A stretch of 64,000 nucleotides of DNA, taken from positions 44,557-108,556 of IMG/VR virus record IMGVR_UViG_3300035670_000069; one strand, 5' to 3'. Under the pieces are notes generated by a model, which did not search any database, had not been told where the DNA came from, and saw nothing but the letters and a program-made list of their open reading frames with translations. The DNA is from a virus. Of this stretch, positions 2,501 through 61,188 are shown piece after piece. Numbering within the stretch: the stretch's first letter is position 1; every line of letters starts with the position of its first letter. A program made the position numbers and the translations under genes.

Positions 2501-2691
2501 TGATCAAGTGCAAAAAATGCAAAAGAAATATGATGGTAGACAGGGTTTATACATCGATATCTCATTTAGAAATTTATTGTTTGACTTGTGGCTCAAGGAG
2601 GTTTTTTCATCCACCCTCAGATTCGGAGGAAGGTAGATGGCTACTCGTAAAGGAAATAAAACGATCGAAGAGTACAACAGCGCCCCTGTAA
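2500..2691 (+). CDS. Small zinc-ribbon protein
   Basis: A 63-residue protein with two CxxC pairs (CKKC near residue 4 and CLTC near residue 28), typical of a zinc ribbon. Its start overlaps the previous stop (TAATG) and its end overlaps the next gene by about 55 bases, so translation is coupled. It marks the change from tail to replication genes. Role unknown, perhaps nucleic-acid binding or regulation. Confidence 0.55.
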   Translation: MIKCKKCKRNMMVDRVYTSISHLEIYCLTCGSRRFFHPPSDSEEGRWLLVKEIKRSKSTTAPL

Positions 2692-3179
2692 TTCCTGGTA
2701 ATAAAAAAGTTTGGTTTTTGAACGGGGACTTAGTAAGAGTTCATCATTTAAATAAATCTAATGGAATTATGTCTGTATATAATATTACAAAAGATCAGAT
2801 TGAAAGTTGTTTAATAAACGATTTTAAAAATAAAAGAGAAAGAGCATACACTGTTGGAGAAACAGCAGACCTTGTTAACAGACATAAAAAATATATGCCA
2901 TCATTAATGAAACGTGGAATTATACCATTTCCAACGGGATCACAAAAGGGCGGAGCAAGAGGTTGGCAAGTTAGATCTTATTATTCTGAGTCGCAAGTAA
3001 AAGACATACGTGATATACTGGCAACGTACCATATTGGTAGGCCACGCAAAGATAAGTTAATAACAAATGATATAACGCCTACAAAGGCTGAGTTGACACG
3101 AAGAATGGGCGATGGTATACTTACATATACGAGAACTGAAGATGGTAGATTTATACCGATTTGGTCAGAATCAATTTAG
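2637..3179 (+). CDS. MerR-like winged-helix DNA-binding protein
   Basis: A 180-residue protein. Residues about 71-125 (YTVGETADLVNRHKKYMPSL, then GARGWQVRSYYSESQV) fit a MerR/excisionase-type helix-turn-helix plus wing, where the second helix and the Arg/Tyr-rich wing contact DNA. ATG at 2637 follows a GAGGAAGG ribosome site. As it lies at the head of the replication block it may be a regulator or an initiator; nothing in the sequence separates these. Confidence 0.55.
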   Translation: MATRKGNKTIEEYNSAPVIPGNKKVWFLNGDLVRVHHLNKSNGIMSVYNITKDQIESCLINDFKNKRERAYTVGETADLVNRHKKYMPSLMKRGIIPFPTGSQKGGARGWQVRSYYSESQVKDIRDILATYHIGRPRKDKLITNDITPTKAELTRRMGDGILTYTRTEDGRFIPIWSESI

Positions 3180-3193
3180 CAGAAGGGTATGAA

Positions 3194-3400
3194 ATGGAAG
3201 ATACAAAAGTATCTGTAACACTTGGATATACACTTAATCTTGGAAACTTTCAATCGCTTAGATTAGATCTAGGCGTAACAGATTCAAAGCGTGATGGAGA
3301 AAATACAGATCAGGCCTTTGAACGTGTATACAAGTTTGTTGAAGAAAAACTAACTAACAAAATCACAGAAGCCAAAGCGGAACTAGAAGAAAGCGAATAG
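3194..3400 (+). CDS. Conserved-looking small protein before the helicase
   Basis: A 68-residue acidic protein. The start at 3194 is chosen because AGAAGGG lies 8 bases before it; a TTG at 3161 is possible. The sequence has a beta-hairpin-like N-terminus (KVSVTLGYTLNLGNFQSLR) and a charged helical C-terminus. Similar short proteins sit near replication genes of actinophages, but no function is known to me. Confidence 0.5.
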   Translation: MEDTKVSVTLGYTLNLGNFQSLRLDLGVTDSKRDGENTDQAFERVYKFVEEKLTNKITEAKAELEESE

Positions 3401-17192: not shown

Positions 17193-17425
17193 ATAAGGCT
17201 GAACTTAAAGTAGAAATGTTGATGGAACATCTTTTGCTACAAAATGCAATAGAGGTTGAGGGGTTTGACAAAAGCACTGGGGAGACGGTATACTCTATTA
17301 CAGACAAACTAAAAGAGGTGGCCCCAGAAATGTATGCTGACTTAAACAAACAATTCACCGCTCACATGCTGGCCCTAATTGATGAGGGGCCAAAAACAAT
17401 GAGGTGGAAAATAAATAATGCCTAA
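17189..17425 (+). CDS. Hypothetical protein, paralog of 37170-37490
   Basis: A 78-residue protein. Its centre (GFDKSTGETVYSITDKLKEVAPEM) matches in form the protein at 37170 (DKDTGEVLYSFTSKLEEVSPEL), so the phage carries two copies of this family. Function unknown. Confidence 0.55.
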   Translation: MNKAELKVEMLMEHLLLQNAIEVEGFDKSTGETVYSITDKLKEVAPEMYADLNKQFTAHMLALIDEGPKTMRWKINNA

Positions 17426-17573
17426 TAAATTTTATACTAACTCTGATTGGCTGCGTAAAAGATATGCTGTAGATAAAAGATCTCCACAAGATATTGCAAA
17501 AGAGTGTGGTGTATCCGTAGAAACAATATATGTATATTTGGCAAAATTTGGATTAAGGAAATCAAAGCGATGA
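17418..17573 (+). CDS. Tiny helix-turn-helix protein
   Basis: A 51-residue protein. Residues about 20-45 (SPQDIAKECGVSVETIYVYL) read as a classic helix-turn-helix, with the last residues KKSKR-like and basic. It overlaps both neighbours (ATGA at its end). Probably a DNA-binding regulator or a helper for terminase. Confidence 0.6.
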   Translation: MPNKFYTNSDWLRKRYAVDKRSPQDIAKECGVSVETIYVYLAKFGLRKSKR

Positions 17574-56061: not shown

Positions 56062-56595
56062 CTACCCCGCCTTATGCACAAATATCTGTAGAGTTATCCT
56101 AAAATCTGATTGAACAGGAGATACTCCATGAGGAGTACCTTCCTCAACTAATACTGCAGTGTTGAATGTTGGTGCAATAGCATTCCAGGAATCTCCATCC
56201 TTCCAATGAAAAATACCACCATCATTATATTTCCAATTCGGATTTAAATATACGGTTATTGCCTTGCTATATCCAGTATCTGGATGAGAGGTTATTAATG
56301 ATCCCCTGCCCCATATATTTACTGTGGTTGCTGTTGTGGTTATAGGTTTTTCAATTGTAAAATCTAATACCCCTTTTTCAACCAATATATTTTCTATTTC
56401 TTTTTCCATTTCTTCAGTAGGCCTTATGCATAAAACAAGACCACTGCCAATTCTTAATGGACTAGGCCAAGCAAGATTAGTTGAGATATGCCTTATAGGC
56501 TCTTTTATTTCTTCACCTTTGGCAATAGACAAACCATACTCATATAGCCTATTTGCTAAATCATCTGATATTAATTTGTCGTATTTTGTAATCAT
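56062..56595 (-). CDS. 2OG-Fe(II) oxygenase
   Basis: A 177-residue dioxygenase: TSHPDTGYSKAITVYLNPNW (HxD) near 101, GGIFHWKDG near 126, TPHGVSPVQSDFRITLQIF near 153 (distal His and Arg). Leaderless promoter upstream. It stops one base before the + strand gene ends (convergent). Confidence 0.8.
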   Translation of the reverse strand: MITKYDKLISDDLANRLYEYGLSIAKGEEIKEPIRHISTNLAWPSPLRIGSGLVLCIRPTEEMEKEIENILVEKGVLDFTIEKPITTTATTVNIWGRGSLITSHPDTGYSKAITVYLNPNWKYNDGGIFHWKDGDSWNAIAPTFNTAVLVEEGTPHGVSPVQSDFRITLQIFVHKAG

Positions 56596-56607: not shown

Positions 56608-56717
56608 CATCATGAATTATCCACAGAAAAATCTTACTGATTATATTTCTAAATAGTCCTAAAGTGGAGTGAAGTGGAGGATAGTGGAGGATGGAGCGTT
56701 TTCGAAGGGGGCGCCGT

Positions 56718-57443
56718 AAAAACCATAAACCTTCAAACCATATATCCTCATATACCATATATGCCCAATATTGTCAAACCATATATCGTTGGGCATTATA
56801 CATGCAATATAATGGTTTGTCAAATTGGATATATGCATGAATATGCCCATAATGTTTCAGGGATTTTTATCGAAATATCGTAATAAGTTTTAAATAAATC
56901 CAAAAAAGATTTAAAAGGTTTGAAAAAGTTTTAAAACCAAGGAATATGGTTTGTTATTGCTTATTAGGGGTATTTGTGTTATGATCGTAATCTTTTTTAT
57001 TCCCCGCCTGGTGCTGCGCCCGCCATTCGGCCCTGTCAAAAAGCGGCGGGGTAAAAGAAAAATACTTTCCTAATCCAATAACCTTAGTAAAAGCAACAAA
57101 GGCATTATGTAAACCAATATCATCTTCATTTGCTGCTTTTGGAAAATTCATTCTATAAAAATGTCTTGGCATAATATAATCATAACACCATTTATATGGT
57201 TTGAAAATATTTCAGGGATTTTTAATGTTTGATCGTAATACCTTTTTTCAAAATTCTGTTGTATTTTCCCCCCCGAATATTGCGGGGTATAAAAAAGATA
57301 CCCAATACCCTATATACAATAAACCATTATACATTCAATACATATGGTTTGACAAATAGAAAATTATTTGATATATGGTTTGAAGGATATTTCAGGGATA
57401 TCGTAATATTCTTCGTAATAAGATATTTGGAAATTATGGTTTG
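56718..57443. repeat. Repeat-rich control or origin-like region
   Basis: Gene-poor, AT-rich. CAAACCATA-type repeats: + orientation at 56734 and 56775; - orientation at 56812 (CAAACCATT), 56945, 57194, 57342, 57373 and 57435. A 30-bp motif ATTACGAT-N8-AAAATCCCTGAAA (- strand) at 56855-56884, 56962-56991, 57210-57239 and 57390-57419. The - strand order motif, 6-8 bases, CAAACCATAT holds at three of them. Also inverted repeat ATGCCCAA/TTGGGCAT (56761-56796) and hairpin CCCCG/CGGGG at 57271-57287. Nothing else is seen in 56608-56953. Confidence 0.6.
56954..57172 (-). CDS. Small hypothetical protein inside repeat region
   Basis: A 72-residue protein, MPRHFYRMNFPKAANEDDIG... with a Trp/Arg/Gln-rich C-terminus. 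TATGAT ends 6 bases before its ATG on the - strand, a leaderless start. Its last 30 bases coincide with one copy of the 30-bp motif, so the 3' end may be a by-product of the repeat. A GC-rich inverted repeat CCCCGCC/GGCGGGG (57002-57051) lies inside it. Confidence 0.45.
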   Translation of the reverse strand: MPRHFYRMNFPKAANEDDIGLHNAFVAFTKVIGLGKYFSFTPPLFDRAEWRAQHQAGNKKDYDHNTNTPNKQ

Positions 57444-57462: not shown

Positions 57463-57765
57463 TCAGTCGAAACTACCTGCTTCAAACAAAAGATCATCTA
57501 ATGTTTCATAGTATTTTGTATTGTCCACCTGTAGTGTTTCACATAGTAGATCCCAGGCTTCGTTTATATATGCCTCTGCTGTTTCTGTTGACTTGACTAT
57601 CCCCTCGTTTATTGCAAAAGCAAGGGGTAGTGCAAGATCACAATAATCTACATAAGATTCAAATGCTTCTTCATCTCTATAGTCCATCCAGAATTTATCT
57701 AATATCTCACACTTCTTAGAAAAGTCTATAGTGGGTTTGTCTGAAGTCACTGCTCTCCTTTTCAT
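57463..57765 (-). CDS. Hypothetical protein
   Basis: A 100-residue acidic, helical protein (FSKKCEILDKFWMDYRDEEAFESYVDYC). Start at MKRRAVTSDK chosen over an earlier Met because it lies closer to the end of the previous gene. First of the right-arm small genes from this side. Confidence 0.5.
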   Translation of the reverse strand: MKRRAVTSDKPTIDFSKKCEILDKFWMDYRDEEAFESYVDYCDLALPLAFAINEGIVKSTETAEAYINEAWDLLCETLQVDNTKYYETLDDLLFEAGSFD

Positions 57766-59847: not shown

Positions 59848-60003
59848 CTATTGAAAGTGTCCCTCTACTATTAATCCTTGTAAGAAGTCAAAGGCTTTGT
59901 ATAGATCCCGTTTGGTTTCAGGGTCATCGGCGGGTATATATTTAGTAGCCTCATTAATAGAGATCTGCATATCTACTACATCTGTAATGGTATAGCCTAA
60001 CAT
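59848..60003 (-). CDS. Small hypothetical protein
   Basis: A 51-residue acidic helical protein (LGYTITDVVDMQISINEATKYI). GAAAGGAAAAT before ATG 60003. Preceded by a promoter that carries the 30-bp motif. Unknown. Confidence 0.55.
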   Translation of the reverse strand: MLGYTITDVVDMQISINEATKYIPADDPETKRDLYKAFDFLQGLIVEGHFQ

Positions 60004-60024: not shown

Positions 60025-60053
60025 ATTATAGCAATTTCAGGGATTTAAGTCAA
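60025..60053 (-). promoter_or_regulatory. Right-arm promoter with operator motif
   Basis: - strand TTGACT (60053-60048), 17 bp ending TGC, TATAAT (60030-60025). The 30-bp repeat ATTACGAT...CCCTGAAA at 60035-60064 covers its -35 and spacer. Confidence 0.65.
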
Positions 60054-60064
60054 GTCATCGTAAT
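60035..60064 (-). repeat. 30-bp bipartite motif, operator candidate
   Basis: ATTACGAT-GACTTGAC-TTAAATCCCTGAAA on the - strand, matching the four copies at 56855-57419. Overlap with a promoter suggests a repressor or activator site. Confidence 0.6.
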
Positions 60065-60142
60065 TAATTTCTGGAAAAATCTAATTAATATCTTAATCAG
60101 GTGTGAGAAAAATCACATGCTCGGGGGATTTTTTTGATCAAT

Positions 60143-60186: not shown

Positions 60187-61188
60187 TTAAACTAATTCTA
60201 GAGTTGAATTAACAACTTGCAACAAGCGATTTTTTTCTGCTGTGATAGCAGGGTCAAAACCACTTGAACCCATTAGGATTGATTCAGTAAGACCACGCTT
60301 ACCTCCACGATACCAATCGATTCTTTCTGTAAGTGCATTCCAAGCACCCCAAGCAGAACCAGCAATCATGCCATTGAATTGACCTGTGTAGATGTCATTG
60401 ATAGTGTCGATTTTATTCTCCCACTTTTTCAATGCACCCTTTTTGGTTTCATCAGGCTTTGGATACGCAGCAAGAACAATATCATTGAATTGTTGCGCTG
60501 TGATTTCTTTCTGAATCATCAACTGAGCCATTTTAGAAAACTCGTCCATGTATGCATTAGCAACACCTAGAGCCTCACGTGCTTGTTGCACTTTACCGTC
60601 AGCAGATTGGGTGTGACGAATCTTGAATGATTGCTTTACGCCACGCTTACCTCTACCAAGAGCAACGGCAAGAGTGTTAGCACACACAACACGAACTGGG
60701 GTCACACTTGCTTGAATAGCAACTGAACCATCGTGTGATGTATTGACAAGAAGATAAGTCTTGACAACATCTGCAACACCGCTAGGGTCTAGAACGGTTT
60801 CACGCTCAAGAGCAAGAGAGCCGAAAACTACACGACCACCCTTGAGAGAGCCAGCAGTCTCCCAACGACCTCCACCATCAAGAATTGCATCACCAAAAGT
60901 GAATAGGTCTTCATTTTGTAGTGGAACATAACGCTCACCTACAACACCCAAAACATCTGTCTGAGAATTATCAAACGGATTAGTGCGAACAACATATTGA
61001 TAAGATTTATCTGATGAGAGATTTTCTGGAATCACTACATCTTCTAATCTAACATTCCAATTCTGGAGATTAGCAAGAGACAACATTTCTGATGTTGAAA
61101 CTTCCTCATTAAATACGGTTCCTAAACCATGCCAAGCAGGTTCACGGAAACTAGCGAATGACTTTTCTGATTCTAATTCATGAGCCAT
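60187..61188 (-). CDS. DUF932 / phage-plasmid-like protein
   Basis: A 333-residue protein with the family features WHGLGT near residue 19, RYVPLQNED near 87, ETAGSLKGGRVVFGSL near 107, RVVCANTL near 164, and a C-terminal WGAWNALTERIDW. Widespread in phages and plasmids, no settled function. Less AT-rich than most of the window. GAAAGGAAG ribosome site. Confidence 0.8.
   Translation of the reverse strand: MAHELESEKSFASFREPAWHGLGTVFNEEVSTSEMLSLANLQNWNVRLEDVVIPENLSSDKSYQYVVRTNPFDNSQTDVLGVVGERYVPLQNEDLFTFGDAILDGGGRWETAGSLKGGRVVFGSLALERETVLDPSGVADVVKTYLLVNTSHDGSVAIQASVTPVRVVCANTLAVALGRGKRGVKQSFKIRHTQSADGKVQQAREALGVANAYMDEFSKMAQLMIQKEITAQQFNDIVLAAYPKPDETKKGALKKWENKIDTINDIYTGQFNGMIAGSAWGAWNALTERIDWYRGGKRGLTESILMGSSGFDPAITAEKNRLLQVVNSTLELV

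Follow-up and report, generated by a model that had tools for sequence, protein, structure and literature searches.

A probable replication origin combined with an early-gene control region at an oriented repeat array of an uncultured phage

What is the role of a dense, oriented repeat array in the genome of an uncultured phage? A sequence-only reading of positions 56718-57443 of the window (the whole stretch of DNA analyzed here, which makes up the rightmost 64 kb of a viral contig of 108,556 bp) had described four 30-bp bipartite motifs together with about eight short repeats, and had proposed a protein-binding array such as a replication origin, a partition site, or a regulatory switch resembling phage stoperators. 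We searched for the bipartite motif, hereafter M (ATTACGA-N13-ATCCCTGAAA), by exact pattern and by PWM. Exact copies number four in the window and zero in the rest of the contig. The sites are the following:

57390-57419, minus strand, M site 1, exact (ATTACGAAGAATATTACGATATCCCTGAAA; PWM score, 31.9 bits), with a second ATTACGA inside it at 57401-57407
57210-57239, minus strand, M site 2, exact (ATTACGATCAAACATTAAAAATCCCTGAAA; PWM score, 40.2 bits)
56962-56991, minus strand, M site 3, right half degenerate (ATTACGATCATAACACAAATACCCCTAATA; scored by PWM)
56855-56884, minus strand, M site 4, exact (ATTACGATATTTCGATAAAAATCCCTGAAA; scored by PWM)
60035-60064, minus strand, M site 5, exact and outside the array, with half-sites that bracket the -35 element of the promoter at 60025-60053
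56714-56720, minus strand, degenerate core M (TTTACGG), which aligns with the conserved ATTACGA of the relatives' cores (alignment A4)

The four motifs first described are therefore present, as three full copies and one degenerate copy, far above chance; a fifth, full copy (site 5) had been overlooked. The short repeat CAAACCATA occurs in eight exact copies in the window, compared to 1.0 expected, and 0 of 100 shuffles reach eight; this excess is not due to chance. Seven of the roughly eight repeats reported lie within the array. The eighth (56530-56538) is located outside it, within an ORF, and is probably unrelated to the array. The repeats are interspersed with promoter-like sequences, hairpins, and genes:

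57435-57443, minus strand, CAAACCATA copy, exact match
57374-57382, minus strand, CAAACCATA copy, exact match
57343-57351, minus strand, CAAACCATA copy that overlaps the -35 element of the 57326-57355 promoter and forms half of the inverted repeat AAACCAT-N16-ATGGTTT
57195-57203, minus strand, CAAACCATA copy, half of the imperfect inverted repeat AAACCATATAAATGGTGT
56945-56953, minus strand, CAAACCATA copy, exact match
56775-56783, plus strand, CAAACCATA copy in reversed orientation, adjoining TTGACA on the minus strand
56734-56742, plus strand, CAAACCATA copy in reversed orientation
57326-57355, minus strand, promoter-like TTGTCA-N18-TATAAT, preceding the small ORF at 56954-57172
56795-56823, minus strand, promoter-like TTGACA-N17-TATAAT, reading towards the core described below, with a -35 element that continues as TTGACAAACCA
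56749-56777, minus strand, promoter-like TTGACA-N17-TATATG
60025-60053, minus strand, promoter TTGACT-N17-TATAAT of the small gene at 59848-60003, overlapped by M site 5
57271-57287, plus strand, hairpin CCCCG-AATATTG-CGGGG
57002-57051, plus strand, hairpin CCCCGCC...GGCGGGG, lying within the small ORF, in its 3' part
56954-57172, minus strand, small ORF encoding 72 aa, located between M sites and 93% identical to its homologue in the relative L014
57463-57783, minus strand, conserved gene that ends just before the array and is the synteny anchor in 82 loci

The order reported for these elements (motif, 6 to 8 bp, CAAACCATAT) is kept at the sites starting at 57390 and 57210 and at the degenerate site starting at 56962. 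As stated, a CCCCG hairpin comes before two M sites (57271-57287 before the 57210 site and 57002-57051 before the 56962 site). Neither hairpin has a T-run, and both are followed by A-rich DNA; a hairpin resembling that at 57002-57051 is found at the equivalent location of another relative (L020, ∼3180 to 3230). The protein encoded at 57463 has no relative among phage records. Two other points raised in the sequence-only reading found no support. The array had been called AT rich, and at 32.1% GC versus 34.1% for the window it is only slightly poorer in GC and not unusual; a strand switch in GC skew had been suggested as a check, and there is no switch at the array. Because skew follows gene strand, it offers no independent support for an origin.

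The gene content of the contig and its relatives indicates the kind of phage that carries this array. The phage encodes DnaB, DnaG, RecA, SSB, and a DnaE-type polymerase that is 55% identical to those of Streptomyces phages, including BillNye and Wakanda. The gene at 60187-61188 (phrog_1221), whose protein set includes a DUF932 match, shares 55% identity with genes located close to the left end of NootNoot-type phages. Neither an initiator nor a helicase loader was recognized, and no Rep initiator gene was recognized among the scanned proteins, all of them from outside the structural region. WhiB is encoded once per genome in all 13 contigs (the window contig and 12 relatives), which indicates actinobacterial hosts, probably freshwater Actinobacteria; metagenomes have already yielded freshwater phages that encode WhiB (PMC6802176; PMC10914622). 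Integrase (PF00589), resolvase (PF00239), and HTH_3 repressor (PF01381) genes were not found in any of the 13 contigs, nor were relatives of phrog_1221 found in sequenced bacterial genomes. Given these absences, the clade appears to be lytic.

We then asked how M is distributed across relatives. An exact-pattern scan returned 24 viral stretches, most of which share gene order with the window phage, and the matrix built from them was tested on 80 loci picked by their phrog_1221 gene alone. In these loci, 203 matches were on the operon strand and 1 on the opposite strand, with 2 in reversed controls over 1.39 Mb. Over all loci, there were 158 non-redundant M sites. The motif is thus neither missing from relatives nor at chance frequency, the two outcomes named in advance as counting against the array, and the strand bias of 203 to 1 favors it. 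Likewise, in 20 long contigs searched with up to one mismatch, M matches were always confined to a single strand per contig. The M pattern searched genome-wide in bacteria gave nine scattered matches, at chance level, with no arrays, most of which resemble coding sequence. These results, with the absence of phrog_1221 from bacterial genomes, led us to reject a host regulatory motif or a prophage origin of M.

The halves of M are approximately two helical turns apart, and at early promoters the -35 element lies between them, as at 60025-60064 in the window. Since only modest peaks emerged when the -10 box was placed against M at all 132 sites, a strict pattern was needed ([AT]TTA[CA]G, a short spacer, a TTGA[CT]-type -35, TCCC, and then a -10 box); this pattern had 46 non-redundant matches, compared to 3 in reversed sequence. 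In a few loci (L019, L021, and L023), the -10 box is instead located within the M spacer. Directly 3' of the -10 box of M-bracketed promoters there is commonly an ATG (for example, L039 11106, L043 11116, L060 11189, and L162 2083), which suggests that the early genes concerned have leaderless mRNAs. Because M brackets the -35 of ∼46 non-redundant early promoters, we consider an orientation-dependent operator its most likely role. As M takes two registers over promoters, we infer that its binding protein fits better as a repressor than as a sigma factor or fixed activator. Candidates for this regulator are WhiB and a 51-aa HTH-like protein (window 17418-17573) that is present in 13 of 13 contigs and matches a PHROG annotated as DNA binding; a solved-structure search with the protein at 2637-3179 returned nothing significant. 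The proposal of a protein-binding array is well supported by these sequence patterns. In addition, CRP/GlxR-type palindromes (TGTGA-N6-TCACA or GTGATTAAGATCAC) were observed just 5' of the M-bracketed promoter that follows the phrog_1221 gene (window 60102-60117, L012 near 6733, and L056 near 11203), and these are possible sites for a host cAMP-type regulator.

The repeats of the array were as originally described, but the most conserved part of the region, just to their left, had been overlooked. Downstream of the array is a core of ∼120 bp comprising an M, CTCCACT iterons, an AT-rich stretch, CAGTAAGAT, and DnaA boxes, which are typically tandem. In the window, it contains the following elements:

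56663-56696, minus strand, iterons, CTCCACT at 56663, 56673, and 56683 (10-bp spacing) and CTCCAT at 56691
56631-56648, plus strand, trio-like track ATC TTA CTG ATT ATA TTT, read from the DnaA box
56617-56625, plus strand, DnaA box TTATCCACA, the single exact box of the window, with an inexact second one

To compare this core across relatives, we used the sequence downstream of gene 57463 in the 82 loci that carry it, 44 of them non-redundant. Among these 44 regions, the oriented k-mers ATTACGA, CTCCACT, CAGTAAGAT, and TGTGGATAA were present in 43, 34, 30, and 23, respectively, and almost never on the opposite strand. The order of elements is constant (several M, 10-bp iterons, CAGTAAGAT, DnaA boxes). 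The first iteron usually follows the last M by 32 to 43 bp, and where both CAGTAAGAT and a DnaA box are present, the distance from one to the other is nearly always 14 bp. The first nine bases of the track (56631-56639), which read CAGTAAGAT on the minus strand, are invariant or nearly so (alignment A4). Tandem boxes are the usual state in relatives that carry DnaA boxes, and an exact box is absent in 12 of the 30 non-redundant regions with CAGTAAGAT. Scanning viral contigs for CAGTAAGAT-N5-TGTGGATAA yielded at least 120 stretches. The matches listed include 93 non-redundant cores, 90 with WTTACG upstream, 74 with iterons, and 72 with a second box in tandem, 2 to 3 bp from the first. Twelve of the 20 long contigs had one core and none had two; in those with a core, M lies on the core's strand and within several kilobases of it.

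Comparison of the array and core with phage records by blastn gave no meaningful match, and comparison with plasmids gave one short Buchnera match only. An RNA element was considered and rejected: Rfam matches were far below gathering scores, and the core had no consensus pairing. The contig ends of relatives seem clustered ∼0.4 to 1.3 kb past the core and 1.2 to 1.6 kb upstream of phrog_1221, perhaps in variable DNA; those past the core are more likely assembly breaks in such DNA than genome ends.

The arrangement of the core recalls origin-opening elements of bacteria. The 18 bp adjoining CAGTAAGAT are 83% AT. Published criteria for a bacterial basal unwinding system (BUS) require a DnaA box followed by at least three NAN trios within 16 bp (PMC8287927), and this combination of box, spacer, and trios is present in all 93 cores among the matches listed. 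Trio-like runs of at least six triplets occurred in 68 of these 93 cores versus ∼2.5% of shuffles, counts that are to be read knowing that AT-rich DNA favors such runs and that the statistics are not independent because the cores have a common ancestry. Among 30 less similar cores, T was the middle base of triplets 4 to 7 in 57 to 83%, with lower T at most flanking positions. The core resembles a bacterial BUS in its TTATCCACA boxes (usually tandem with a 2- to 3-bp gap among the cores listed, although the window has one exact box), its NAN triplets, and its AT-rich DNA. In contrast to the bacterial element, it lies in a phage, beside phage-specific M sites and CTCCACT iterons, its invariant CAGTAAGAT forms an imperfect 3'-GAT-5' run, some relatives have no boxes, and unwinding here is predicted.

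Iteron origins are marked by direct repeats at helical spacing next to an AT-rich stretch, and the 10-bp CTCCACT repeats show this arrangement here. Plasmids F and P1 have iteron origins that also use DnaA. Like them, the phage region combines helically phased direct repeats, an AT-rich stretch, DnaA boxes, and related promoter sites; unlike them, it has two unrelated repeat families and no recognizable Rep gene.

Taking the array and core together, we consider it probable (roughly 0.6, judged from sequence) that they form a replication origin combined with an early-gene control region using host DnaA. Of the three roles first proposed, an origin is the best supported, and the main evidence for it (56617-56696) lies just outside the interval to which the proposal had been attached. 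Starting from the observed order, spacing, orientation bias, and conservation of the elements, we infer the binding and functional steps as follows. The array would be the upstream half of the composite region. A phage regulator would bind M sites in one orientation; at early promoters, where the M halves flank the -35, the bound protein would therefore compete with RNA polymerase, and the M sites of the array would hold the same regulator beside the origin. Promoters with CAAACC half-sites may drive leftward transcription towards the core. Host DnaA is predicted to bind the TTATCCACA box or boxes, spread along the trio-like strand, which comprises CAGTAAGAT and the AT-rich stretch, and open the duplex, at which the phage DnaB, primase, and DnaE-type polymerase would load. 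The CTCCACT iterons and the last M could place a phage factor that couples initiation with early transcription.

Alternatively, the region could be purely transcriptional, with M as an operator or activator site, CAAACC half-sites bound by a second regulator, DnaA boxes that tune transcription, and the origin elsewhere. The 46 non-redundant promoters with an M-bracketed -35, the strict orientation of M, the presence of WhiB and the small HTH protein in every contig, and the 12 of 30 core regions without exact DnaA boxes are all consistent with this explanation. However, it leaves unexplained the CTCCACT iterons, the invariant CAGTAAGAT at a fixed distance from tandem boxes, the trio-like track, and the single core per genome, and we regard it as rather unlikely.

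Cultured Streptomyces phages (Stanwilliamsviridae) bear on a further possibility, that the core marks the packaging cut (terminase site) of a long terminal repeat. In NootNoot, Bmoc, Wakanda, and Sham, DnaA boxes are present in the corresponding non-coding gap, and three of the four (not Sham) have M-like arrays. NootNoot carries five TTTACGA-type M repeats on the phrog_1221 operon strand at its non-coding left end, and its two TTATCCACA boxes lie 71 and 93 bp past the terminal-repeat start; Bmoc has an array of the NootNoot type and an exact box 114 bp past the terminal-repeat boundary. Wakanda and Sham each have three boxes in a ∼1.4-kb non-coding gap ∼5.5 kb from the terminal repeat, and in Wakanda this gap also contains M-like GTTACGA/TTTACGA repeats. 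The terminal-repeat boundary is thus within ∼115 bp of DnaA boxes, beside the M array, in NootNoot (L343 8301) and Bmoc (L347 6824), and genome end and origin-like region are neighbors in these two phages and not in Wakanda or Sham. The likeness to the window consists of DnaA boxes in the matching gap, found in all four phages, and TTTACGA/GTTACGA-N-TCC repeats, found in NootNoot, Bmoc, and Wakanda. In contrast to the window, GC content is higher, CTCCACT iterons and the CAGTAAGAT core are not seen, and the end region of NootNoot and Bmoc straddles the terminal-repeat boundary. The papers searched contained no description of these M-like repeats. The proximity of boxes, M array, and terminal repeat in NootNoot and Bmoc is what a packaging site would predict, and BE1 phages have terminal repeats of ∼11 kb with sequenced physical ends (PMC5764925). 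However, the distance in Wakanda and Sham separates box cluster from genome end, which weakens this explanation, and a packaging site would not be expected to have DnaA boxes with trios; we judge this explanation improbable.

Still less probable is that M serves immunity as the stoperators of cluster A (L5) do, with a repressor at M sites that stops initiation and elongation. The defining features of stoperators include asymmetric sites oriented with transcription and located at promoters and in non-coding DNA (PMC9283540). M sites share these features, with orientation fixed to transcription and positions at promoters and between genes, and to this extent the earlier comparison was apt. Membership in the class was not supported. 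Cluster A stoperators of mycobacteriophages are 13-mers bound by a repressor monomer, whereas M is bipartite and spans 30 bp, its halves being separated by two helical turns; M sites cluster in one neighborhood rather than genome-wide; the 13 contigs have no integrase, resolvase, or HTH_3 immunity repressor; and phrog_1221 gives no sign of a prophage in sequenced bacterial genomes. Because the clade appears lytic, a true stoperator system is very unlikely. A partition (centromere-like) site, suggested by direct repeats in a non-coding stretch adjoining an origin-like core, deserves hardly any weight given the lytic lifestyle and the lack of ParA/ParB Pfam families among the scanned window proteins.

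Returning to the composite origin and control region, we tentatively extend this reading to the clade, at less than even odds: a large group of uncultured lytic actinophages may carry a complete bacterial-type opening module (tandem DnaA boxes and trios) inside a phage-specific control region whose operators also govern early promoters, such that one phage regulator and host DnaA would together set the start of replication. The region bears on how large lytic phages choose and open a replication origin, in phages of abundant freshwater Actinobacteria that are almost all uncultured. Since the element is single copy, exactly spaced, and has counterparts in Streptomyces phages, the position of the origin, its dependence on host DnaA, and early control could be tested in laboratory strains. 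The core and M also provide a DNA signature for spotting the clade in metagenomes. If the reading is correct, the layout by which bacteria open their origins would sit inside lytic viruses.
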